64,000 nucleotides of DNA from Lysinibacillus pakistanensis. GTDB lineage: Bacteria; Bacillota; Bacilli; Bacillales_A; Planococcaceae. The translations under genes and the position numbers were made by a program. The stretch spans positions 1,734,501 to 1,798,500 of the forward strand of contig NZ_CP126101.1 in assembly GCF_030123245.1 (NCBI RefSeq). The letters are read 5' to 3'. The notes under the pieces were generated by a model. That model was not told where the DNA came from. It searched no databases and was given only the letters and a program-made list of their open reading frames with translations. The number at the start of each line of letters is the position of its first letter. Within the stretch, counting starts at the first letter, position 1. Positions 18,808 through 63,338 of the stretch are shown piece by piece.

Positions 18808-20562
18808 TCATTCCTCTTTAATTCGTAATTGCTGCTTCGCAAACTCACGATACATTGCATGTGTTTCAAAGAGCGTTTCATGTGTACCACAGCCTGTAAT
18901 ATATCCTTTTTCTATAAATAATATTTGATCGGCATCTACCACTGTTGATAGACGGTGAGCTATAACTAATGTTGTGCGACCTTGCATTAAATTGTCTAAC
19001 GCCTTCTGTACATAAATCTCCGACTTGCTATCTAAACTCGAGGTTGCTTCATCTAGCATTAAAATTTGAGGGTTCCGTAACAGGGCTCTTGCAATGGAAA
19101 TACGCTGACGTTGCCCACCTGAAAGCTTAATTCCTCGTTCTCCAACCTCTGTGTTAAACTTATCTGGCAGATCATTTATAAAGTGATCAGCATAGGCCAT
19201 TTTAGCCACTTTTTCTAGCTCATCATCCCGCACCTCACGGTCAACACCGTAGCAAATATTGTCACGAATCGTTCCTGACAGTAGGGCACTTTCCTGCGCC
19301 ACATAGCCAATTTGACTGCGCCAAGAGTGGAGTGAGAAAGTTTCAATTGGTGTATCTCCTAGTGTAATACTGCCACTAGTTGGCTGATAATATCGCTCTA
19401 AGAGAGAAAATGTTGTTGTTTTTCCGCCACCACTTGGTCCAACGATGGCCGTTACTTTGCCTGGCTCAATGGTAAAGTTAATATTGGACAAAATTGGTTC
19501 CTCATCATAAGAGAAGTCCACATTTTTGACATAAATCGGTTGATCTACTTTTTCTACTGTTAAGCCGTCCTCAATATGTTCTTCTTCATGTTCAAGTAAC
19601 TCGCTAATTCGTTCCGTAGCTCCCATAGCCTTTTGAAGTTGCGTAAAGAACATAGTTAATTGGGTCATAGGCATAATGATTTGGATTAAATATAAAATAA
19701 ATGCCACCATATCGCCAGCAGTTAGTTCCCCAGAGGATACACGAACACCACCGTATCCAATAATAGCGACAAGTACTGACATCAGAACAAATGAAATTAA
19801 TGGCGAAATAAGTGCATGAATTTTTGCTTCTTTTAAGCCAAAGGTAAAGAGATTTGTAATGCCCTTTTTTCCACGCTCATATTCAATTTGCTCTGCATTC
19901 GATGCCTTAACTAAGCGTGTTTCAGGTAAAACTTGGTTCAGCACGGATGTAAACTTCGCTGTCTCATCTTGCATACCCTTTGAAATCACAAACATGCGTT
20001 TACCAAGCAACATTAAAATAACCATCGCCAGTGGAACAGCGATTAGCATTACCAGCGTCATTTTCCAATCTAAGAATAAGAGAATGATGATAGAGCCGAT
20101 GATGGAAATAACACCAGATAAGCAGTTTGCTAGATGCTCCGTAATAAGCTCCTTCACGACCGCTGTGTCATTGGTAACACGGCTTAATGTTTCACCAGTA
20201 TCATGTTCATCATAATAGGGGATTGGTAAATGAAGCAGCTTGCGCCAAAGTTGATCTCGTAATTTTGCCACAACATGCTGTCCAACTCGATTTAAATAAT
20301 AGATGGATAATCCACTAGCAATAGCCTGTGCGATAAAGGCAATACCCAGTAAAATGATTTGCCAATAATTAAGCGCTTCTAATGAAAAGCCATCCACTAA
20401 CTGTTTTGTAAATAAGGGGACGATAAAGCCTACACCCGTTGTAGCTAAACTCATAATTAAGGCAATAACTAGTAGCCAAACAGGTGGTTCAGCTCGTTTT
20501 ACTAATTGTATAAAACGTCGCCAATCTTGTTTTTTAGTAGTACCTTTTGATGTTTCTTGCAA
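18808..20562 (-). CDS. ABC multidrug exporter, half-transporter (BmrA/LmrA-like)
   Basis: 584 residues with an N-terminal type IV exporter membrane domain of six helices and a C-terminal ATPase: Walker [11 protein letters not shown]-loop in YVAQES, signature LSGGQRQR, Walker [13 protein letters not shown] and the H-loop AHRLST. Such half-transporters work as homodimers that export lipophilic drugs or lipids. The start is a TTG nine bases after AAGGAGG. The two-component system follows directly, an arrangement that suggests the exporter answers to envelope or drug stress. The substrate is unknown. Confidence 0.9.
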
Positions 20563-43117: not shown

Positions 43118-43146
43118 ATGAGCAAATCTATTTTTAAATTATTGAC

Positions 43147-43172
43147 CTAACGGTGTAGGTTAGTAGATTAAG
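43147..43172 (+). repeat. AACGGGTGC-type repeat, copy 1 (diverged)
   Basis: Matches the copy at 44025 at about 19 of 26 positions by eye, sharing CTAACGGTG and TTAGT. It lies between the APH-like and nucleotidyltransferase genes. Confidence 0.5.
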
Positions 43173-43227
43173 AAATTATTATACAAATTAGAGAAATATT
43201 ATGTATTAGGATGATTAGGAGGTATTT

Positions 43228-44028
43228 ATGACGACAAATATTTTAAATATACAAGAGGAAGCCAAAAAAATTGTAGAAAAAGTTGCTTATATTTATCAAT
43301 ATCATACAAGAGAGGATTTTATAGGTTTAATTGTTCATGGTTCCGTAGTAAAAGGTGGCATTATTCCAGGTTCAAGCGATATTGATTTTCATCTTTATTT
43401 GAAGGAAACGGCTTTTGAAAAACAAGGTATATTACCATTGGAGTTATATCTAAAAATTCATCGAGATTTAAGCAAAATTGATACGAAACCATTTAGCTAT
43501 ATTCAATGTGAAGCATTAACAGATAAATTACCAAAGGGATTTATTGGTCCAGTTCCTGGTGCTTATCAAATTGTGGCTGGAAGGTTGCCAGTAGAGGAAG
43601 CATCAAATGAACAATTGAAGGAAACGGCATTAAAATCATTAAATGATTTAACTGTTGTTCCCAAGTATTTTTCTACACTATTAGACCACGGAAAAGAGAG
43701 ATTAACGAGAGTTGTACGTTTACTTAATACACAAGTTTCTCCAACAATATATCACGTCCTATCTTTAGTACATCAAGATGCCATTGAAATATGGCAGATG
43801 CCAAAAAATAAGGCAATACACTTATTACCCGAAGAAATGAAAAAATTTGCAATTCAATTTTATGAATGTGCTAAAAGGTATTACCCTGATGAAATTTCGG
43901 TTAATGATGCTTTAGGTATGATTGAAAATGGTGCAAAGTTCTTCGAAAGTGTAAATCTCTGGTTCAAATTGAGAAAAACTAACGGATGCGTTAATTATAG
44001 ATCGTTGAGGTACATTGGCAACAACTAA
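43228..44028 (+). CDS. Nucleotidyltransferase-domain protein
   Basis: The polymerase-beta-like nucleotidyltransferase core is HGSVVKGG (Gly38-Ser39) with the metal-binding pair Asp51 and Asp53 in SSDIDFHLYL. A helical C-terminal part of about 150 residues follows, as in aminoglycoside adenylyltransferases and related small-molecule nucleotidylating enzymes. The 266 residues end in an odd tail, KTNGCVNYRSLRY, encoded by a copy of the AACGGGTGC-type repeat, so the original gene probably ended earlier. ATG with ribosome site TAGGAGG. Substrate unknown. Confidence 0.75.
   Translation: MTTNILNIQEEAKKIVEKVAYIYQYHTREDFIGLIVHGSVVKGGIIPGSSDIDFHLYLKETAFEKQGILPLELYLKIHRDLSKIDTKPFSYIQCEALTDKLPKGFIGPVPGAYQIVAGRLPVEEASNEQLKETALKSLNDLTVVPKYFSTLLDHGKERLTRVVRLLNTQVSPTIYHVLSLVHQDAIEIWQMPKNKAIHLLPEEMKKFAIQFYECAKRYYPDEISVNDALGMIENGAKFFESVNLWFKLRKTNGCVNYRSLRYIGNN
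43979..44003 (+). repeat. AACGGGTGC-type repeat, copy 2, inside the 3' end of the nucleotidyltransferase gene
   Basis: AACGGATGCGTTAATT here closely matches AACGGGTGCGTTAATT at 51001, including the following AGAT-CG. It encodes the last residues of the preceding gene. Confidence 0.65.
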
Positions 44029-44050
44029 CGGTGCAATTTAGTTGAACAAG
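44025..44050 (+). repeat. AACGGGTGC-type repeat, copy 3
   Basis: CTAACGGTGCAATTTAGTTG followed by AACAAG. It begins at the stop codon of the nucleotidyltransferase gene, only 22 bases after copy 2. Confidence 0.65.
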
Positions 44051-44107
44051 CGTAAATAATTCTACAGACCTTATTTAGATAGAAATAACATTAATTAGGA
44101 GGAAAGA

Positions 44108-44743
44108 ATGAGTAATTTTAGAGGGATAATCTTAGAGGGCTACTCGAATGCTGGAAAAACATCAGTCTTAAAAGCGTTGAAACAACTTCAAGCAAGTGAT
44201 GATGCCGAACGTAGTGTCATAGTTCTCAGTGAGCATTATTCGCAAGTATTACACAAAGTAAATGGTGAATTAAAGTCGTTAAGTCGAGATGAACACTTAC
44301 AAGTCTTAAGAGAAAGAGTCACGATGCTGAAAATGTTAAATAATTGGTCAAGAGAAATTGGACAAACCCAACGTTCAAAAGGTTTATTCTTTATATTGGA
44401 AAGGTTTCATTTAAATCATCGAGTAGCATTTTCTCATTCAATATCAGATGAAATCAAGGAATTAGAAGCCCAGTTATTTGAAATGGGAGCAAGATGTACT
44501 TTGTTAACTGTATCACCAGAAAATTTAGAGCAAAGAATAAGTAGTAGAAACCCTAATGAAAGGGAAGGGAAAACCATGGAAGAAATGAAATTAGCGTGTG
44601 AATTATTATTAAAACAACAACAAGAGTATAGGAGCCAAGCTGAAAATTCTATCATTCCTACAATTGAAATAAATACTGATAATAAAGATTGGGATTCCTA
44701 CGCAAAACAAATTTACTTATTAAACTCCCATGAAAGAACGTAA
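44108..44743 (+). CDS. P-loop kinase-like ATPase (thymidylate kinase-like)
   Basis: The Walker A motif is GYSNAGKT at residues 11-18, and the fold resembles nucleoside/nucleotide kinases: a DRX-like FILERFHLNH segment near residue 100 and a lid-like ISSRNPNEREGK with basic residues. At 211 residues it is close in size to thymidylate kinase, but the usual thymidylate signature is absent. It has a strong TAGGAGGAAAG ribosome site. It lies in the accessory stretch after a nucleotidyltransferase, so a small-molecule or toxin-antitoxin-like role is possible. Substrate unknown. Confidence 0.65.
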   Translation: MSNFRGIILEGYSNAGKTSVLKALKQLQASDDAERSVIVLSEHYSQVLHKVNGELKSLSRDEHLQVLRERVTMLKMLNNWSREIGQTQRSKGLFFILERFHLNHRVAFSHSISDEIKELEAQLFEMGARCTLLTVSPENLEQRISSRNPNEREGKTMEEMKLACELLLKQQQEYRSQAENSIIPTIEINTDNKDWDSYAKQIYLLNSHERT

Positions 44744-44793
44744 CATCTTTCATTTTCTGTGGTGTAGCGCTGGTTTTTGCGCTACATGGATGG

Positions 44794-44819
44794 CTAACTG
44801 GGGCAATTGTTCAATAGAG
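44794..44819 (+). repeat. AACGGGTGC-type repeat, copy 4 (diverged)
   Basis: CTAACTGGGGCAATTGTTCA followed by ATAGAG has the same layout as the other copies (CTAAC, GGTGC-like, TTGnnCAATAAG-like). It follows the P-loop kinase gene. Confidence 0.5.
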
Positions 44820-44895
44820 CAGTCGCTTTTCAATAACGTTGAGGTCAGTTCAATATATATAAGTGAAAAAATAATTAATGGAGGGGGTAATGTGA

Positions 44896-45063
44896 CACAT
44901 TCTTATATCTACACCTTGGGATGGAGAAGGGACGCAATGGATGGAGCACTACCTTTATGTTTGTAACAAAAATAGTGAAGAACTTGTAAAGTATTTAGCA
45001 TTCAGAGATTATTTGCGAAATAACCCACAAGTCGTAATTGAATATGAAATTGAGAGGAGATAA
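44896..45063 (+). pseudogene. GrpB-family fragment (C-terminal part)
   Basis: In this frame the last 40 codons read YLYVCNKNSEELVKYLAFRD then YLRNNPQVVIEYE. This is the conserved C-terminal end of GrpB/UPF0157 nucleotidyltransferase-like proteins (HxLxVC...ELxxHLxFRDYLRxNP). The N-terminal two thirds is missing: the frame opens only at 44896 and no start with a ribosome site fits. The NUDIX gene begins three bases after the stop, so the fragment may have been fused to its present neighbour by deletion. Confidence 0.65.
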
Positions 45064-45066
45064 GCA

Positions 45067-45543
45067 ATGAGGGCGCCTTATCAAGTTTTGGTATTTCCTT
45101 ATATAATCACTGACAATTCTATTGAATATGCAATTTTTAAGAGAAGTGATTATGGGTATTGGCAGGGATTAGCAGGTGGTGGGGAAGAGGATGAGACTCC
45201 TATTGAATCAGCTAAACGAGAAGCATTTGAAGAGGCTGGTATTACAAAAGATTATCCATATATTGAATTAGATTCTATGTCTTCACTACCGGTAGAAGAT
45301 GTAGTTGGGAACTTCCTTTGGGGAGAAGACATTTATGTATTAAAAGAATTTTCTTTTGGTGTTAAAGTTCCTACAAAAGATATAACTTTATCAAAAGAGC
45401 ACCTCAACTACAAATGGTTATGTTTTGAAGAGGCAGTAACGCTTTTGAAATGGGATAGCAATAAAACGGCGTTATGGGAATTGAACAAAAGGTTATTAAA
45501 TCGGACTAACACCAAGCAAAAGTTTGCGAAAGAAAATACTTAA
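45067..45543 (+). CDS. NUDIX hydrolase
   Basis: A pyrophosphohydrolase of 158 residues with a complete NUDIX box at residues 37-59: Gly37, Glu43, then RE at 51-52 and EEAG at 55-58 (in AKREAFEEAGI). It is similar in layout to dATP/dihydroneopterin-triphosphate pyrophosphatases. ATG with ribosome site GAGAGGAGA, overlapping the end of the GrpB fragment. An AACGGGTGC-type repeat follows the stop. The substrate is probably a nucleotide derivative but cannot be specified. Confidence 0.83.
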   Translation: MRAPYQVLVFPYIITDNSIEYAIFKRSDYGYWQGLAGGGEEDETPIESAKREAFEEAGITKDYPYIELDSMSSLPVEDVVGNFLWGEDIYVLKEFSFGVKVPTKDITLSKEHLNYKWLCFEEAVTLLKWDSNKTALWELNKRLLNRTNTKQKFAKENT

Positions 45544-45544
45544 T

Positions 45545-45590
45545 CTATCGGTGCTAATTGAAGAAGATAGCAAAACCAGAAGCAACAATC
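45545..45590 (+). repeat. AACGGGTGC-type repeat, copy 5 with extended tail
   Basis: CTATCGGTGCTAATTGAAGA starts two codons after the NUDIX stop. The similarity to the copy at 51001 continues for about 45 bases through CCAGAA and CAATCTTT, so the repeat is longer than its 26-base core. Confidence 0.6.
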
Positions 45591-45612
45591 TTTGAGAAAA
45601 TAGCCTATTGAA

Positions 45613-45963
45613 TTAGTGGAGCAGTTTCAAATCTAGTAGCCGGTCTATTTTTTCGTGAATTGTTTGTTCTTGTTTTGTTAGCCGTTTAATTTCTAACTGT
45701 AATTTTTGTAATTCATCTTCATCAAAATCTGAATCAATGTATTTATGTGCCATTTCTTTATTTGTTAAAATATCTTTGACTGCTTTAGTAATGTTTTGTC
45801 TAATTCTTTTATCATTTATATATGGTTTAACTGGACAATTATCATGTGTATTTTCAGCAGCATGTGTAATAACAAAGAGAGGGTAACATTGATCTTCATT
45901 TTTGCCATATGCCATTTGTTTTTTCACACTAAGAGCTTTGCTGCAATCATGTATCTGTACCAT
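45613..45963 (-). pseudogene. Fragment resembling the C-terminal part of a large serine recombinase
   Basis: A 116-residue frame with two Cys-containing turns (EDQCYPLFV and DNCPVKPYI) followed by a coiled coil ending in EKIDRLLDLKLL. That order, a zinc-ribbon-like part, an N-terminal helix, then a coiled coil with KIxRLLDL, recalls the C-terminal domains of large serine integrases. No catalytic domain is present. The likeness is weak and the frame could instead be an unrelated small protein. It lies in the mobile-looking part of the window. Confidence 0.35.
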
Positions 45964-46342
45964 GTATGTCTTTAAAAAAACAGAGGAATAGAGAAATTGT
46001 CGGTAGCACCAGGAAAATGTTCAGGAGCTGCCTTAAAGGCACGAATGTTGTTACAGGGGCTATACAACATTCAGGCGCAATTGTGGAACAACAACAGATA
46101 GAAAACAATCAAACTATTATTGCATAGCTCTTCAAAAGAAAGAATCCGTTTTAATCAATCTTTTTTTAAAACGGATTCTTTTAATTTAACGTAAAATACG
46201 TGTTTGCAGGGTGTTTTTGATCAATCTTTATTCCAAAGCTATATCAAGTTAACGTTTTATATGTCCCCAAAAGTGAAAAAATCTGAGCTGTATTCAGCAA
46301 AGAAACTAAAATTTCTATTTTGGGGTATTTAGTATTCTTAGA
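45964..46342. other. Intergenic region with a perfect 16-bp hairpin
   Basis: Besides the hairpin AAAGAATCCGTTTTAA (46139-46154) / TTAAAACGGATTCTTT (46166-46181), only short frames are seen. Sequence after the hairpin (GTAAAATACGTGTTTGCA, and CAAAGCTATATCAAGTT) resembles the sequence after the hairpin at 51074-51125. Confidence 0.6.
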
Positions 46343-46645
46343 TTGATGATTATGGGGTCCTACCAGGGTTCCGCCAACATTTTAATGAAAATATACGCTA
46401 AGCCAATATTCAATACAATAAAGCCAATAATTCATTCTCTAAGGGGACTATCGGCTTATAGACGCTTGCTCACGTTTCGAATTTTATGGTGGATTATTCA
46501 TTTCGGCTGCCGTCGCTGGCGTGCCCCACAGCTTCGCCAAGTGGAGAGAGATTTGTTTCGAAATATTGCGGTTTTATTCGAAGATGCATACACCCGAGTT
46601 CTGCGAGTGTATAATCTGAATCAGCAATGGAATTTTACAAGATGA
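46343..46645 (+). CDS. Hypothetical protein of doubtful coding status
   Basis: A 100-codon frame directly before the decarboxylase gene. Base composition rises in GC from about 46450 on, like that gene. The product is basic and rich in Arg and hydrophobic residues (for example YRRLLTFRILWWIIHFG), with no known motif. No good ribosome site precedes the first ATGs. It may be a leader or the remnant of a gene carried in with the decarboxylase. Confidence 0.3.
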   Translation: MMIMGSYQGSANILMKIYAKPIFNTIKPIIHSLRGLSAYRRLLTFRILWWIIHFGCRRWRAPQLRQVERDLFRNIAVLFEDAYTRVLRVYNLNQQWNFTR

Positions 46646-46664
46646 AGGGAGATGCATTTTCCAC

Positions 46665-48128
46665 ATGATGAAGCATAATTCAATTCTTAATCTTAATACG
46701 GATGAACGCATGGACATTGGAACCTATCTTTTGGAGCAAATCAATGACTATATGACGCACATACGCGGGGTTCGTGTCTCACCTGAACTCAGCGTGGATG
46801 CGGTTGCAGAATACGCACGTAGATTATCTTTTGAGCATCCCGTCAGCGCACGCGAGGCGATTTATCATATCCTGGAGGGATTAAGGCAATACCAAGTACA
46901 TACGCCACACCCGCGATATTTCGGCCTGTATAATCCGCGGCCCAACTTCATGGGAATAATGGCGGATATGATTACTGCAGCATTCAATCCGCAGCTTGCA
47001 GCCTGGAGCCATGCGCCTGTAGCGGTCGAAATGGAGAACTATGTATTGAAAGAGATAGCTTCAAAATTCGGTTATTCAGCAGAGGCAGCAGATGGGACAT
47101 TTACAACTGGGGGAGCGGAAGCAAATTTGACAGCCGTACTGACCGCACTAGTGCATCGTTTTCCATCTTATGCTAAAGAGGGGCTGAGGTCGCTCCCCAC
47201 GCAACCCGTCATGTACGCCTCTGCTGAGAGCCACCATTCTCTGGTAAAGGCAGCTCGTTCCTGCGGACTGGGTACAGATTCCCTTCGTATTATTACGACA
47301 GATTCTCAACTGCATATAGATGTTCATGCGCTTCATCATCAAATTCAAGTGGATCGCGCTGCTGGATACACTCCTTTTCTCATCATTGCGACGGGTGGAA
47401 CGACCGGCGCCGGAGCGATTGATCCCATTAACGAAATGGCAAACTTGGCTGAACGTGAGCAACTGTGGCTGCATGTGGATGCTGCGTACGGAGGAGCCTC
47501 CGTGTTTGCACCAGAACTGCTTGATCTACTTCATGGTATTAACCGAGCTGACTCCATTACCTTCGATGCGCACAAGTGGATGTCTGTCCCAATGGGGGCG
47601 GGAATTTATATTACACGGCATAAGGACATCTTACATAGAACATTCAGCATCACGGCAGATTATATGCCGAAAGAAGGGGGTGATCTGGATGTTATTGAAC
47701 CGTTCACCCATTCGATTCAATGGTCGCGAAGGTTTATCGGTTTGAAAGTGTACTTATCTCTTGTAACTGCTGGTTGGGAAGGCTATCGCAGCATGGTGCA
47801 GCACCAGACAGAGATGGGCAATCGGTTACGCCGGGACCTTGCATGCTCTAACTGGAAGGTTGTCAATGATACCGTATTGCCTGTAGTATGCTTTACTGAT
47901 TCCAATATACAATCAAAGATCCAATCGAATTTCGCATCATTTATATGTCAAGAGATATTACGTTCAGGGCAGGCATGGATTTCAGTATACGAAATAAACA
48001 AGGCTCCAGTACTGCGAGCTTGCATTACGAACTACGATTCAACTGAGGAAGATATTATGGTATTGATGGAGTTGCTGAATAGAGCAAGAGCAAAATATTT
48101 GGAGAGACATCCGAACGGTTTGAGCTGA
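46665..48128 (+). CDS. Pyridoxal-dependent group II decarboxylase
   Basis: A PLP enzyme of 487 residues in the aromatic-L-amino-acid/glutamate decarboxylase family (PF00282). ESHHSLVKAA gives the His stacking on the cofactor, ATGGTTGAGAIDPI and HVDAAYGG bind phosphate and pyridine N, and FDAHKWMSVP has the Schiff-base Lys. FTTGGAEANL is the conserved N-terminal part. The substrate may be an aromatic or acidic amino acid. Its GC content and codon choice (many GCG, CGC and CTG codons) differ sharply from the AT-rich neighbours, which points to recent transfer, perhaps from a Paenibacillus-like donor. Confidence 0.85.
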   Translation: MMKHNSILNLNTDERMDIGTYLLEQINDYMTHIRGVRVSPELSVDAVAEYARRLSFEHPVSAREAIYHILEGLRQYQVHTPHPRYFGLYNPRPNFMGIMADMITAAFNPQLAAWSHAPVAVEMENYVLKEIASKFGYSAEAADGTFTTGGAEANLTAVLTALVHRFPSYAKEGLRSLPTQPVMYASAESHHSLVKAARSCGLGTDSLRIITTDSQLHIDVHALHHQIQVDRAAGYTPFLIIATGGTTGAGAIDPINEMANLAEREQLWLHVDAAYGGASVFAPELLDLLHGINRADSITFDAHKWMSVPMGAGIYITRHKDILHRTFSITADYMPKEGGDLDVIEPFTHSIQWSRRFIGLKVYLSLVTAGWEGYRSMVQHQTEMGNRLRRDLACSNWKVVNDTVLPVVCFTDSNIQSKIQSNFASFICQEILRSGQAWISVYEINKAPVLRACITNYDSTEEDIMVLMELLNRARAKYLERHPNGLS

Positions 48129-48210
48129 ATTTAGCCAAGGAAGACATTATACCATCAATGGGCTGTTCCAATAGTCATGTCACGACATAGAATAGTCCGG
48201 GGTCCCACCA

Positions 48211-49440
48211 CATCGCCATCAAGCTAAGGTTAATTTGTATCATCATAACGAAAAAAACGCTATTCTTTTTGTAGAAATATACAGGAAGGATTGCGTTTTC
48301 TATGAGTTTTTCTGTTTCAGCGAAATGAATCTCTTTGCTCAATAACTTCAAAAATACTTATCTCCATCTTCTCTACAACAATTAGCTAAAGAAGTTGGTT
48401 TTGTTCAACGTACAAGTAAATATCAAGCACAAGAATTAATTGCTTTATGTGTATGGCTTAGTCAACAGGTCGCGAGTACACCACTCACACAATTGTGTAG
48501 CCGTCTCGAAGTATCTACAGGTGTCCTCATGAGCCCCGAAGGGCTTAATCAACGATTCAATGGTTCAGCCGTACAGTTTCTTCAACAAGTTCTAGCTAAT
48601 CTTCTAACTCAAAGAATTCATTCAACACAAGAAATACTTCATCCATACTCCACGACTTTTAAACGTATTCGATCCTAGATCCTACAACATTTCAACTTCC
48701 AGATAAGTTTACTTCACATTATCAAGATTCTGGCGGAATAGCCATACCGCGGGTGTTAAAATCCAACTTGAATATGACTTATTGAGTGGGAAGTTCCTCC
48801 ACGTTTATGTAGGAGAAGGGAGAGAAAATGATAAAACCTTCGGTTCCACAAGTCTACTAACCATTCAACAGAAAGACTTATACATAAGGAATTTAGGGTA
48901 TTTCGACTTACACGACTTACAGAAAATGAATGATGAAGGTGCTTACTATGTCTCACGTTTGAAGTTGAATACTCGCATATATCGTAAGAATGATGAACCG
49001 GAGTTTTTTCGGAATGGGACTGTGAAGAAAGGTATTCTCTTTATTCAGTTAGACACAGAAGAGCTTATGAATCAATTACAACCTGGTCAAACACTTGAAA
49101 TTTCAGAAGCATACATTGGGCTGTATCAAAAACTACCCGCCCGAGTGATTATTCATCGACTAACTGAGGTACAAACAGAGAAAAGATTGAAAGAACAAGC
49201 AAAAAAAGAAAAGAAGAAGGGCATTACCTATAGAGACCGAAGCAAACGATTAAGTGGAATGAACGTATATATTACAAATCTTTCTTTAGAAGCCGTTCCA
49301 ACGGAACATATTCATGAACTGTATTCGTTACTTGGCAGATTGAAATTCTATATAAAACATGGAAATCTTTTTTTTCAAACTGACAAGTGCAAAGAGATTA
49401 AGAGGGAACGCTAAGAGTGTCTTCGCTTGTTATACGAGAT
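48211..49440 (+). mobile_element. Decayed IS4-family (IS231-like) insertion sequence
   Basis: Pieces of one transposase are spread over several frames: LQQLAKEVGFVQRTSKYQAQ near 48375, LNQRFNGSAVQFLQQVLANL near 48545, and from 48782 a 210-residue frame with DLHDLQKMNDEGAYYVSRLK and YRDRSKRLSGMNVYITNLSL. Near 49320, where IS4 enzymes have YSLRWQIE, the reading frame shifts. Stops and shifts near 48678, 48720-48780, 49330 and 49410 make it inactive. A possible left terminal repeat, CATCGCCATCAAGCTAAGG, lies at 48211. No matching right end was found, so the element is probably truncated. Confidence 0.75.
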
Positions 49441-49889
49441 CGTAATGTCCCAACCAGCCTAATCATGCGTTAACAAGTAGAGGGCGAACAGTTTAGTTGT
49501 CGGGATCAAGTTCCACGGGTGCTTCCGTTCTACCCCAGCTACTATCAATCTATAAATTGAATAAAAAATAGTCAACCAGATTTCTCCGGTTGACCTTATA
49601 ATACGAACGAAGCAGATTATTGAAAGAAGAAATTTGTTACAAACTACGAAAAGCCCAGAGAATAGGTGATCCTTTTCCCTTTCAACCGTTCAGAAATGGA
49701 CGGTTATTTTTATACTTAAAATGATTACTAGGTATGATTTACTAACCTGTTTTCTGTTTAAAAAATTTTAAAAAAATAGTTGGTGAAAAGAATTTCTTAT
49801 CGATTTAACCTTTGGGTAAGGAGATAATCATATTTACTAAGAAAAGACAATTGAGCTAAAAAGTCAATATATGATATGGAGAAAGTTAT
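49441..49889. other. Intergenic region after the IS remnant
   Basis: No gene seen. A 7-bp inverted repeat GTCAACC (49571-49577) / GGTTGAC (49588-49594) could be a weak terminator. The final 30 bases supply the ribosome site of the serine hydrolase. Confidence 0.45.
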
Positions 49890-50870
49890 ATGAATCAAGA
49901 AAAAGTGATAGAGTTAGAACAGAAAATAAACAATGATTATAGTAATATTGCAGGCATGGTTGTACTAAAAGATGGTAAAACACTTTATGAAAATTATTTC
50001 AATGAATGCACTTCTTCTAGCCGAATCCATGTTTATTCAGTATCAAAAAGTATTATTTCCATATTGTTTGGGATTGCCTTAGACAAGGGGTACATCAAGA
50101 GTATCAATCAGAAAGTATTGGATTTTTTTCCAGATTACAAGACAAAAAGAGGAGAGAAAACTATACAAAATATTACAATTAAGGATATGCTGACAATGAC
50201 AGCTCCGTATAAATATAAAGTTGCACCATACACTTACATTAAGTATTTTATGAGTGATGACTGGGTAAAATTTACACTTAATTTATTGGGAGGTAAAGGG
50301 CAAATCGGGAAATTTAGGTATACTCCTCTCGTAGGTCCAGATATTTTGTCAGGCATTCTTGTAAAAGTAACGGGAAAATCTGTGTTTGATTTCGCAACAG
50401 AAAGTGTATTCTCGCCATTAGGAATTACTCTTGAGAGTAATGTGATTTTTCATAGTGTAAAGGAACAACGCGAATTCAATAAATCTAAAAGTATCAGTGG
50501 CTGGGTTGCTGATCCAAATGGAGTAAATACAGCAGGGTGGGGTCTTACTCTTTCTCCTAGGGATATGGCGAAAATAGGTCAATTATACTTAGACGGAGGA
50601 ATCTGGAATGGAAAACAAATTGTGTCGTCTCAATGGATAGACGAGAGTACAAAGGAACATAGTCGATGGGAAAAACTCAATCTATCATATGGATATTTAT
50701 GGTGGATTATTGACGATAAAGAACAAGCCTATGCAGCTATGGGTGATGGAGGTAATGTGATTTATATTAATAAAAAGAGAAATATGGTCGTTTCTATTAC
50801 TTCTCATTTTAAGTCAAATGCCAAGGATAGAATAGAACTTATTAAGGAATATATAGAAAGAATATTTTGA
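49890..50870 (+). CDS. Serine hydrolase, beta-lactamase/class C-type fold
   Basis: The nucleophile motif SxxK is Ser50-Val-Ser-Lys53 in HVYSVSKSIISI, followed by the helix FGIALDKGYI. RYTPLVGPDILSGILVKVTG occupies the place of the YxN motif but without the Asn, and GDGGNVIYI replaces the usual HTG. The 326 residues have no signal peptide, so a cytosolic esterase or peptidase role is more likely than antibiotic hydrolysis. ATG after GGAGAAAG. An AACGGGTGC-type repeat lies about 130 bases beyond the stop, like those after the other accessory genes. Confidence 0.82.
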   Translation: MNQEKVIELEQKINNDYSNIAGMVVLKDGKTLYENYFNECTSSSRIHVYSVSKSIISILFGIALDKGYIKSINQKVLDFFPDYKTKRGEKTIQNITIKDMLTMTAPYKYKVAPYTYIKYFMSDDWVKFTLNLLGGKGQIGKFRYTPLVGPDILSGILVKVTGKSVFDFATESVFSPLGITLESNVIFHSVKEQREFNKSKSISGWVADPNGVNTAGWGLTLSPRDMAKIGQLYLDGGIWNGKQIVSSQWIDESTKEHSRWEKLNLSYGYLWWIIDDKEQAYAAMGDGGNVIYINKKRNMVVSITSHFKSNAKDRIELIKEYIERIF

Positions 50871-50997
50871 AAATACAGAATAATTGATTAATAAATCGTT
50901 CTGGATTGATTGAAAAATTATTAATACAAAGTGGCTATTGTGTCCATTAGAAAACGATATATTGCTAAATGAATAAATTGTGAATAATTATACTTAA

Positions 50998-51050
50998 ACA
51001 AACGGGTGCGTTAATTGAAGATTCGGATCCAGAAATAATCAATCTTTATT
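50998..51050 (+). repeat. AACGGGTGC-type repeat, copy 6 with extended tail
   Basis: AACGGGTGCGTTAATTGAAG followed by ATTCGG and, further on, CCAGAAATAATCAATCTTTA. It shares its core with the copy at 43979 and its tail with the copy at 45545. Confidence 0.65.
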
Positions 51051-56627: not shown

Positions 56628-56867
56628 TTTATGAAATTGATTCAAGTATCAGAAATGAAATTAAATTTTCTATCTTCAACTGCTGGTGCTTTACTTCAAG
56701 AAAGATAAATATATCTGATATAAAACTAATAGAAAGAATTTAATAAGAACCTAACTTTTTTTATGGAATGAATCACTAATGAGCAGGAATATTGAGGAAG
56801 AAGAGGGGGAGTTTCTGATAGAATTAAAATTATATTAAAAGTTTTGAAATTTAGAGAGGGATGTTAC

Positions 56868-60853: not shown

Positions 60854-61037
60854 GTTTAGGTTTCACCATTTATACAAAATAAGGAAATTGATTTATAGAG
60901 ATGGAGAAAGAATCATTCCTTCATTACCTGTTGTTGAGTAATAATATAGTTCTTTAATTATAAATATAGTTGTTTAAAAACTTTAATTTACTTGTTCAAT
61001 TAAAGTGTCTCTGTTCTTGGATCTAAGTCAAGATTAC
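60854..61037. other. Intergenic region between the ABC operon and the IS3 element
   Basis: No gene seen. It contains a reverse-strand copy of the AACGGGTGC-type repeat at about 60990-61013 (reading AATTTACTTGTTCAATTAAAG on the plus strand, shared part CTTGTTCAATTAAAG). Confidence 0.5.
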
Positions 61038-62352: not shown

Positions 62353-62438
62353 AAAACAGACACGTCCTCTCTTGGTTATAATAATACTTACTTAACCAGG
62401 ATGTGTCCATGACTCCATTCTACATTCATCTTATTAAG

Positions 62439-62465
62439 CTAATGGAGGCTTTAGTTCAATAAGAA
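62439..62465 (+). repeat. AACGGGTGC-type repeat, copy 7
   Basis: CTAATGGAGGCTTTAGTTCA followed by ATAAGAA, just outside the IS3 element on the side opposite to the reverse-strand copy at 60990. Confidence 0.55.
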
Positions 62466-62820: not shown

Positions 62821-63338
62821 AATAAACAATCAATGCTTTAAAAGAAGAAGCACAACAGCGAGTAAAACCTACATCGAGTTCGATTGATACGTTTATTTAA
62901 GCTATACAATCACATAAAAATAACGTCCCAAACAAAAGTTTGGAAACACACCAAAAAGGCACGAGTGTTGTTAAATCAACGTTCGTGCCTTTTTACGAGG
63001 ACTATTGTTTATACAGCTTTTTATGCAAAGCTATATAAACATAGCTACGATATAGGACTTTTCGAGATTTTTCAGAGTGTGTTATCTGAATAAAAACCTG
63101 AATATAGAGCAATTTATTAAGCTGTATAACTGCATTTTTTTACCGTTCCTATACTTCATTACAGGAGCTATAGTTGAAAAACAATCTTCCTTAATCGGGC
63201 GCTTTTCTTTCTTCATCTAAAGGACCATTTAGTTGTATAAGAGCATTTGACATATATTGTGAAGCCTGTGCATACTGACTTGGTTGAGATATTCGAGTCC
63301 CATTCCATCATGGTGCTATGATGGAATGGCTTTGGTAA
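62821..63338. other. Intergenic region with hairpins and a repeat copy
   Basis: No gene seen. 62953-62996 is a terminator-like hairpin (AAAAAGGCACGA / TCGTGCCTTTTT with further inner pairing GTTG/CAAC) downstream of the small membrane protein. A diverged AACGGGTGC-type repeat lies at 63217-63242 (CTAAAGGACCATTTAGTTGT, then ATAAGA). 63299-63329 is a perfect 12-bp hairpin CCATTCCATCAT / ATGATGGAATGG just after the stop of the convergent hydrolase gene. Confidence 0.6.

Follow-up and report, generated by a model that had tools for sequence, protein, structure and literature searches.

A predicted integron-like gene-cassette system with single-core boundary sites and a XerA-like recombinase in Bacillales

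Introduction

The closest described relatives of the system considered here are integrons, the pdif modules of Acinetobacter plasmids, and the elements that enter cassette boundaries. According to one study, the function of integrons depends on an insertion in the catalytic domain that is specific to their recombinase, IntI (PMC8138268). A survey from 2022 reports that Firmicutes contain integrons extremely rarely, a single complete element having been found, and that it is still unclear why some clades have none (PMC9024848); in a review, Firmicutes are listed as one of the phyla that have integrons (PMC8618304). In addition, elements of the IS1111 type target the integron boundary site attC, according to PMC11187229. 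The stretch analyzed here is a window of 64,000 nucleotides of Lysinibacillus pakistanensis (NZ_CP126101.1, positions 1,734,501 to 1,798,500), in which a short motif recurs between small accessory genes. The preliminary description of this DNA proposed two readings of the motif, a common recombination site of gene cassettes or a non-mobile repeat, and the former has turned out to be the better one: the motif is the boundary of one-gene cassettes, which are differently combined in related bacteria. It very probably belongs to an integron-like cassette system of Bacillales, in which a predicted XerA-like recombinase would insert, excise, and reorder the cassettes. In the literature searched, the scope of which excluded bioRxiv and most subscription papers, no publication describing such a system in Bacillales was found.

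The boundary site and its modules

The motif is a core of two inverted arms, TTSAACTAAC and GTTAGTTSAA or TTTAGTTSAA, around a spacer of ~7 bp (often GGGGCAG), and it is frequently followed by NAAG. The exact pattern CTAACGGNGCNNTTTAGTTGAAN{0,2}AAG occurs in at least 120 stretches of the genome collection. The 80 record titles listed, which we take to be Bacillales throughout, include Viridibacillus, Lysinibacillus, Paenisporosarcina, Sporosarcina, Solibacillus, Neobacillus, Peribacillus, and Psychrobacillus. Exact CTAACGGNGCNNTTTAGTTGAA was found in 57 of the 261 genomes of an order sample, all from one family, with 0 in every row of the reversed-pattern control; and the full core with up to 4 mismatches gave 339 matches in the first 40 loci versus 2 in mononucleotide shuffles. 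A related motif, CAATCGGGC / CAATCGGGCNNNTTNNTTGAA, stands at L161:3067 (L161 is an array of the window's own genome) and in 61 of the 261 genomes; CAATCGGGCNNNTTNNTTGAA is possibly a second core type.

Modules bounded by these cores form arrays in many genera of Bacillales, where they stand head to tail and are mostly co-oriented, and the same module is found between different neighbors in different genomes. The arrays combine single-gene modules with modules of 50–62 bp between cores that lack an open reading frame (ORF), and the core-to-core lengths of same-orientation pairs peak at 40–70 bp and at 200–1000 bp. Adjacent sites have the same orientation in 867 pairs and opposite orientations in 209. 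Of the 445 gene-size modules that contain an ORF, 377 have the longest one running along the site direction and 68 have it in the opposite direction; the median start lies 96 bp past the core, and the median stop is 52 bp short of the following core. One locus, L162, contains ~19 kb of such modules. The ORF-less modules resemble intrinsic terminators by eye (e.g., CTAACGGGTGCTTTACTTCAAGAAGGAGTAAAGCCTTTTT...), and one of their ends, GATTGTGAAGAAATGTACTTAAA, recurs before CTAACGG in L026, L080, L108, and other module ends. Cassette ORFs were sampled from 249 gene modules, of which 40 were displayed, and a Pfam scan of eight cassette proteins left two of them without a family. A cassette of 60 amino acids is duplicated within the L161 array, with 99% identity (L161:13096-13484 and L161:17178-17565).

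Some alternative assignments were discarded. The 50–62-bp stretches were considered as two-core attC sites, a reading dropped because L162 holds a gene module without such a stretch (860–1213) and each core alone forms a boundary. In a folding test, the composite two-core stretch did not take an attC-like fold. A stretch before many cores, GATTGTGAA...ACTTAAA, was first taken as attI, but the actual leader adjoins the integrase. Finally, an assignment to the bcr repeats of B. cereus was dropped, since the exact pattern turned up in intergenic positions of many genera, always with the same module layout.

Putative exchange at the core

The ends of homologous blocks (at least 250 bp, at least 80%) were compared in 161 loci, and 140 of the 468 distinct internal ends are no more than 25 bp away from a core, versus 25.1 for random placing (~5.6-fold). 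The change-over positions were then counted from the C of CTAACGG (position 0), in non-independent pairs that have loci in common. Where one module has different left neighbors (55 pairs), the mismatch reaches 0.84 at −6, is 0.71 at −3, and falls to 0.00–0.16 from −1 to +5; the integrase module, at its far end, accounts for 20 of the 25 pairs shown out of these 55. For a different right neighbor, the leader junctions (79 pairs, 19 loci) go from 0.00 at +5 to 0.63 at +6. The change-over lies inside or beside (A)CTAACG, and the alignments place the apparent exchange point in or adjoining this sequence and not spread over the 26-bp core. This is therefore unlike homologous recombination, which would scatter the exchange over the whole core. 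For the same reason, we consider it improbable that the motif is a non-mobile palindromic repeat, comparable to repetitive extragenic palindromes (REP) or miniature inverted-repeat transposable elements (MITE), whose copies shuffle genes by homologous recombination. In agreement with such a repeat, both strands of the single core can form a hairpin (z −3.8 / −4.1; −4.9 / −4.4 kcal/mol, about equal), the copies are many and similar, and some adjacent ones are opposite. On the other hand, besides the narrow change-over, the modules are bounded on both sides, are mostly co-oriented with their gene, and have at their head a dedicated integrase whose leader is conserved.

The integrase and its leader

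The integrase was found by searching nine genomes with an integron-integrase model, below the cut-off of this model; the XerC/XerD-like recombinases of the nine genomes scored higher. It is a tyrosine recombinase of 279–281 amino acids, whose gene lies beside the arrays and points away from them, and intact genes for it head arrays with a leader ending at CTAACG. The window's own genome has an intact gene of 281 amino acids at G000:C1:930731-931573 (minus strand), with cassettes from 931.6 kb onward. The earlier statement that no integrase was visible thus holds for the window and not for the genome, which has one 0.85 Mb away, beside another array. The integrases scored 220.3, 224.2, and 210.9 bits with the XerA model of NCBIfam (NF040815; cut-off 220) and far below the cut-offs of the NCBIfam XerC/XerD models, and three of them scored 89.7, 95.9, and 97.3 bits with the IntI model (TIGR02249; cut-off 265). 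Their matches to the integron-integrase profile are split, up to position ~180 and from 234, so that the IntI-specific insertion is unmatched; XerC/XerD-like matches are split similarly on this profile, which counts 315 positions versus 279–281 residues in the integrase. The putative catalytic region reads CRIGE...GKGDKERE...HPHQLRHSY...LLGHEKSETTRIYAQL. An AlphaFold model of the protein was poor (pLDDT 67, pTM 0.41), and its best PDB match, XerA (5hxy, TM 0.31), adds nothing beyond the sequence. In a tree of 59 rows, with a bootstrap that had not settled, the integrases (two identity classes) fall on one side of a branch with values of 100/99, and the XerC/XerD-like genes that these genomes also carry fall on the other.

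This separation bears on the role of the host recombinases XerC and XerD, which move the pdif modules of Acinetobacter plasmids, a precedent described in PMC6449649. That they also move the modules described here is very unlikely. The two inverted arms with a short spacer are Xer-like and the integrase itself is XerA-like, but it is a separate integrase clade that goes with the arrays. The core also seems unlike the dif site of B. subtilis.

The leader, upstream of the integrase gene, is a conserved stretch of ~72 bp that ends at CTAACG. When distinct junctions with an integrase start 72–88 bp away are counted (n = 19; the near-identical genomes of L180 and L183 share one), all 19 carry different first-cassette starts, with CTAACG in 17 and one-base variants in 2. 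Being a conserved site beside the integrase gene, the leader can be described as putatively attI-like, and cassettes would enter there. A promoter scan of L161 15600–16800 did not find a cassette promoter in the leader. Its sole promoter-like site (L161 16612-16585, minus strand) points at the integrase, and the scanned stretch contains 5 such sites in total, versus 3.6 ± 1.7 in shuffles.

Integrase and site also go together across genomes. Among the matches listed, the exact site is present in 32 of the 42 genomes with an integrase match of at least 78% (fragments included) and in 25 of the 219 genomes without a listed match (Fisher p 4e-17, ignoring genome kinship). In addition, the integrase gene seems to behave as a module, since in L162 and L163 the integrase and the next cassette (68 amino acids) form a block of 99.2% identity in different surroundings, which starts at a core and ends ~33 bp into the core opening the next module. 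Integrase genes were detected in 7 of 72,556 plasmid records at E ≤ 1e-60, one with 94.7% identity in Sporosarcina psychrophila and the others with 62–74%. In the S. psychrophila plasmid NZ_CP146247.1 (L202), GNAT, NUDIX, and mercury-reductase genes as well as an IS110 transposase are found no more than 6 kb from the integrase, and this plasmid is a possible vehicle between species. Phage records contain five distant relatives (33–37% identity). A second integrase class, with 58–66% identity, was observed in seven genomes looked at (L223–L229), being located at G000:C1:4277725-4278564 in the window's own genome; five of these seven loci have fewer than two good CTAACGG cores nearby.

The cassettes of the Lysinibacillus pakistanensis window

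The strict core pattern found nothing in the window's own genome, and a loose one (3 mismatches) gave 20 matches versus 8 in the control. A sequence model of 40 positions, R1, was used instead; the 110 sites from which it was made came from other genomes, with the window's own genome excluded. Its scan of the window, run with no filters, gave 40 matches up to E 10. The modules were compared with a set of 32 genomes of the genus, own genome included. All features below are on the plus strand unless otherwise stated.

A core site at 43139..43175 (CTAACGG at 43147; R1 E 1.8e-6) opens the module of a predicted nucleotidyltransferase gene (43228..44028; weak Polbeta/NTP_transf_2). This block is present in three other genomes of the set. 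It is found with other neighbors as 43157–43968 in L205 (97%) and 43198–43968 in L206 (95%), and in L204 it extends to 43986, into the core. The core in question, at 43977..44003 (R1 E 0.03), starts an ORF-less module of 46 bp (43979–44024), and a third one at 44023..44050 (CTAACGG at 44025; R1 E 6.3e-6) opens the module of a predicted P-loop kinase-like protein (44108..44743; AAA_18, below cut-off). In genome G056, the APH and nucleotidyltransferase genes match the window at 94% through AAAAACTAACGGA and then diverge into a GNAT-like cassette (annotated by eye) followed by the NUDIX cassette, in place of the kinase. At this orthologous place, the GNAT cassette substitutes for the kinase at CTAACGG. 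The kinase block is present at full length in four genomes and partially in two more; as 44027–44726 or 44045–44726, it has 94–97% identity in L207–L210. Its right end is TTATTCAA/TTCTTCAA CTAACGG in all four loci, which show three different neighbors (L208 and L209 have the same one), and its left end lies at a core in two of the four.

Another cassette gene codes for a NUDIX hydrolase (45067..45543; PF00293). Its block is present at full length in three genomes, two of which were taken as loci (L204 and L211), and partially in others. In both loci, 45050–45551 matches at 96% and is preceded by CTAACGGAGCAAGTTGG, so the left core has been lost in the window and kept in the relatives. The module is closed by a degenerate core at 45540..45568 (CTATCGGTGC; the copy at 45545), which is non-significant alone (R1 E 2.3) and is backed by comparison, since L204 and L211 have CTAACGG (GCTAACGG) at that place. 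Genome G041 shows the reverse of the window's order, with the NUDIX block preceding the nucleotidyltransferase block. Further downstream, a gene for a serine hydrolase of the beta-lactamase fold (49890..50870; PF00144) lies upstream of the next core (50991..51022, with the copy at 50998; R1 E 1.1e-5), and the module after this core resembles by eye the one right of L163:3015 in Paenisporosarcina. Other sites are a core at 62429..62465 (copy at 62439; R1 E 4.4e-7), a diverged core at 63205..63241 (copy at 63217; R1 E 0.061 on the plus strand and 0.024 on the minus strand), a weak, half-length match at 60989..61009 on the minus strand (the reversed copy at 60990; R1 E 0.14), and a match at 56685 (E 0.017) that had not been listed before. 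Searches of the window gave no Rfam match and no tRNA or tmRNA.

Six of the nine motif copies listed in the preliminary description are supported by R1 at E ≤ 0.1; the one at 60990 is weak, that at 45545 non-significant, and that at 44794 undetected. Its observation that the housekeeping half has no copies has been borne out, the strongest R1 match in 1–42000 being at 19585 with E 0.84. The placement of copies at or just after stop codons is roughly correct: the copy at 45545 lies 2 bp past the NUDIX stop, those at 43147 and 50998 lie 102 and 128 bp past a stop, and the one at 43979 lies inside the final 50 bases of the nucleotidyltransferase ORF, whose stop codon falls inside the 44025 copy. 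As anticipated there for cassettes, sister species have different genes between the copies, and several of the breakpoints, not all, are at the motif. Random placement in the genome had been named as an argument to the contrary. Taking R1 matches at E ≤ 0.1 and the best strand per place, 37 of 51 places have a neighbor within 10 kb, versus a mean of 8.9 and a maximum of 24 in 2000 random draws; the copies in this genome are therefore clustered and not random. Their orientation on G000:C1 is plus in 26 of 27 sites before 2.745 Mb and minus in 22 of 24 after it, and would follow the direction of replication if the terminus lies near mid-genome. Overall, the window holds an old, partly decayed stretch of cassette array devoid of an integrase.

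The mini-element and IS110-type elements

Between the kinase and NUDIX genes, a mini-element of 67 bp (CCCATGAAAG...CATGGATGG; 44727..44793) has entered at the CT of a former core, with CT on both sides. The degenerate core on its right (44794..44819), not detected by R1, was placed via the mini-element junction, which in other genomes joins the element end to CTAACGG (also in L021, L029, L036, L044, and L066, among others). Matches to the mini-element occur in at least 23 of the 32 genomes of the genus, and it is thought to be IS110-related. Its longer forms carry noncoding stretches with both core halves (GACTAACGGATGGGCTC ... GCACCATAGTTCATCGACC), which presumably resemble the target loop of a bridge or seek RNA. 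Two IS110-type transposase genes lie in the L161 array (L161:11124-12359 and L161:14297-15547; PF01548, PF02371), and the noncoding DNA beside them contains GAACGGTTTAGTTGAC, that is, the core halves.

These elements might suggest that the repeats are scars or targets of IS110-type elements that move genes by RNA-guided recombination. The mini-element and its longer forms end exactly at cores, two IS110-type genes are part of the array, and the noncoding stretches beside such elements hold core halves by eye. Nevertheless, only 19 element junctions were found in 140 loci, versus several hundred cores in the first 40 loci of a later set, and the elements seem to enter a pre-existing core, as IS1111-type elements enter attC (PMC11187229), so that only a very slim chance is left for this explanation. 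By this parallel, the insertion of the mini-element supports the core as a recurrent, recognized site.

Proposed mechanism and points against it

In the integron-like system proposed, the recombinase would bind both arms of the core and exchange strands within CTAACG. Cassettes would be taken in at the attI-like leader and released as circles. Probably only one strand would be exchanged and replication would complete the process, as in integrons, because the spacers differ between partners. The terminator-like ORF-less modules would insulate neighboring cassettes from each other.

Several observations weigh against this proposal. Most loci were selected for holding sites or the integrase. The orientation is opposite in 209 of the 1076 adjacent site pairs, and the non-leader right junctions (23 pairs) climb less sharply, at +7/+8. 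Not all modules end as expected: the duplicated L161 cassette has its left end at a core and its right end inside the arm of the next one; the nucleotidyltransferase block of L205 and L206 stops 11 bp short of the core, with no core after it; and the kinase block of L207 and L210, which no core precedes, begins 20 bp into the core. Regarding the integrase, 25 of the 57 exact-site genomes are without a match of at least 78% among the matches listed, 10 of the 42 genomes with a listed match lack the exact site, L162 has modules on both sides of the integrase, and the window has no integrase. The pairing of integrase and site is read from neighborhood and co-occurrence, and recombination itself we infer from the sequences.

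Comparison with integrons and other cassette systems

Taken further, these data make it reasonably likely, with less assurance than for the cassette system as such, that we are dealing with an independently evolved integron, in which a XerA-family integrase and single-core sites constitute a genome-wide gene-capture platform of Bacillota, shared across genera, with gene and terminator cassettes and the integrase itself between two cores. If the cassette system operates as proposed, Bacillales have a gene-cassette platform of their own, which standard searches probably overlook, and a second kind of recombinase has given rise to the integron mode of operation. The scattered small accessory genes of many environmental Bacillales (GNAT, NUDIX, APH-type, DinB, and immunity-like) would then be explained. 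The integrase and the core are, besides, a small two-part system open to testing.

The pdif modules of Acinetobacter plasmids also have genes between short two-arm sites, with varying neighbors. They differ in depending on the host XerC/XerD and in having sites of opposite orientation (PMC6449649); here, the sites are mostly direct repeats (867 adjacent pairs versus 209 with opposite flanking sites), the modules have an integrase of their own and a leader, and most of the arrays studied lie on chromosomes. The insertion of IS1111-type elements in attC resembles that of the mini-element in that an element stands at a fixed point of a cassette boundary; the target here is the CTAACGG core, in Bacillales, and the kinship of the mini-element to IS110 is putative. 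The window itself is comparable to a cluster of attC sites lacking integron-integrases (CALIN), with boundary sites, accessory genes, and no nearby integrase. Its sites, however, do not appear to be attC sites, and search tools based on IntI and attC probably miss them.

With integrons, the Bacillales arrays share a dedicated tyrosine recombinase whose gene points away from the array, single-gene cassettes that are exchangeable and co-oriented (with the 209 of 1076 opposite pairs mentioned), a conserved leader joined to different first cassettes, ORF-less modules, integrase-less stretches elsewhere (CALIN-like), and IS110/IS1111-type elements that enter the boundary site. The differences are that the integrase here is XerA-like, lies below the IntI cut-off, and has no match to the extra stretch of IntI; that the boundary appears to be one inverted-repeat core and not a paired attC; and that in L162 the integrase itself sits between two core sites. 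Judged by the IntI model and the insertion, the tests available, the Bacillales system would stand outside the integrons proper, and in its layout and apparent way of working it is integron-like.

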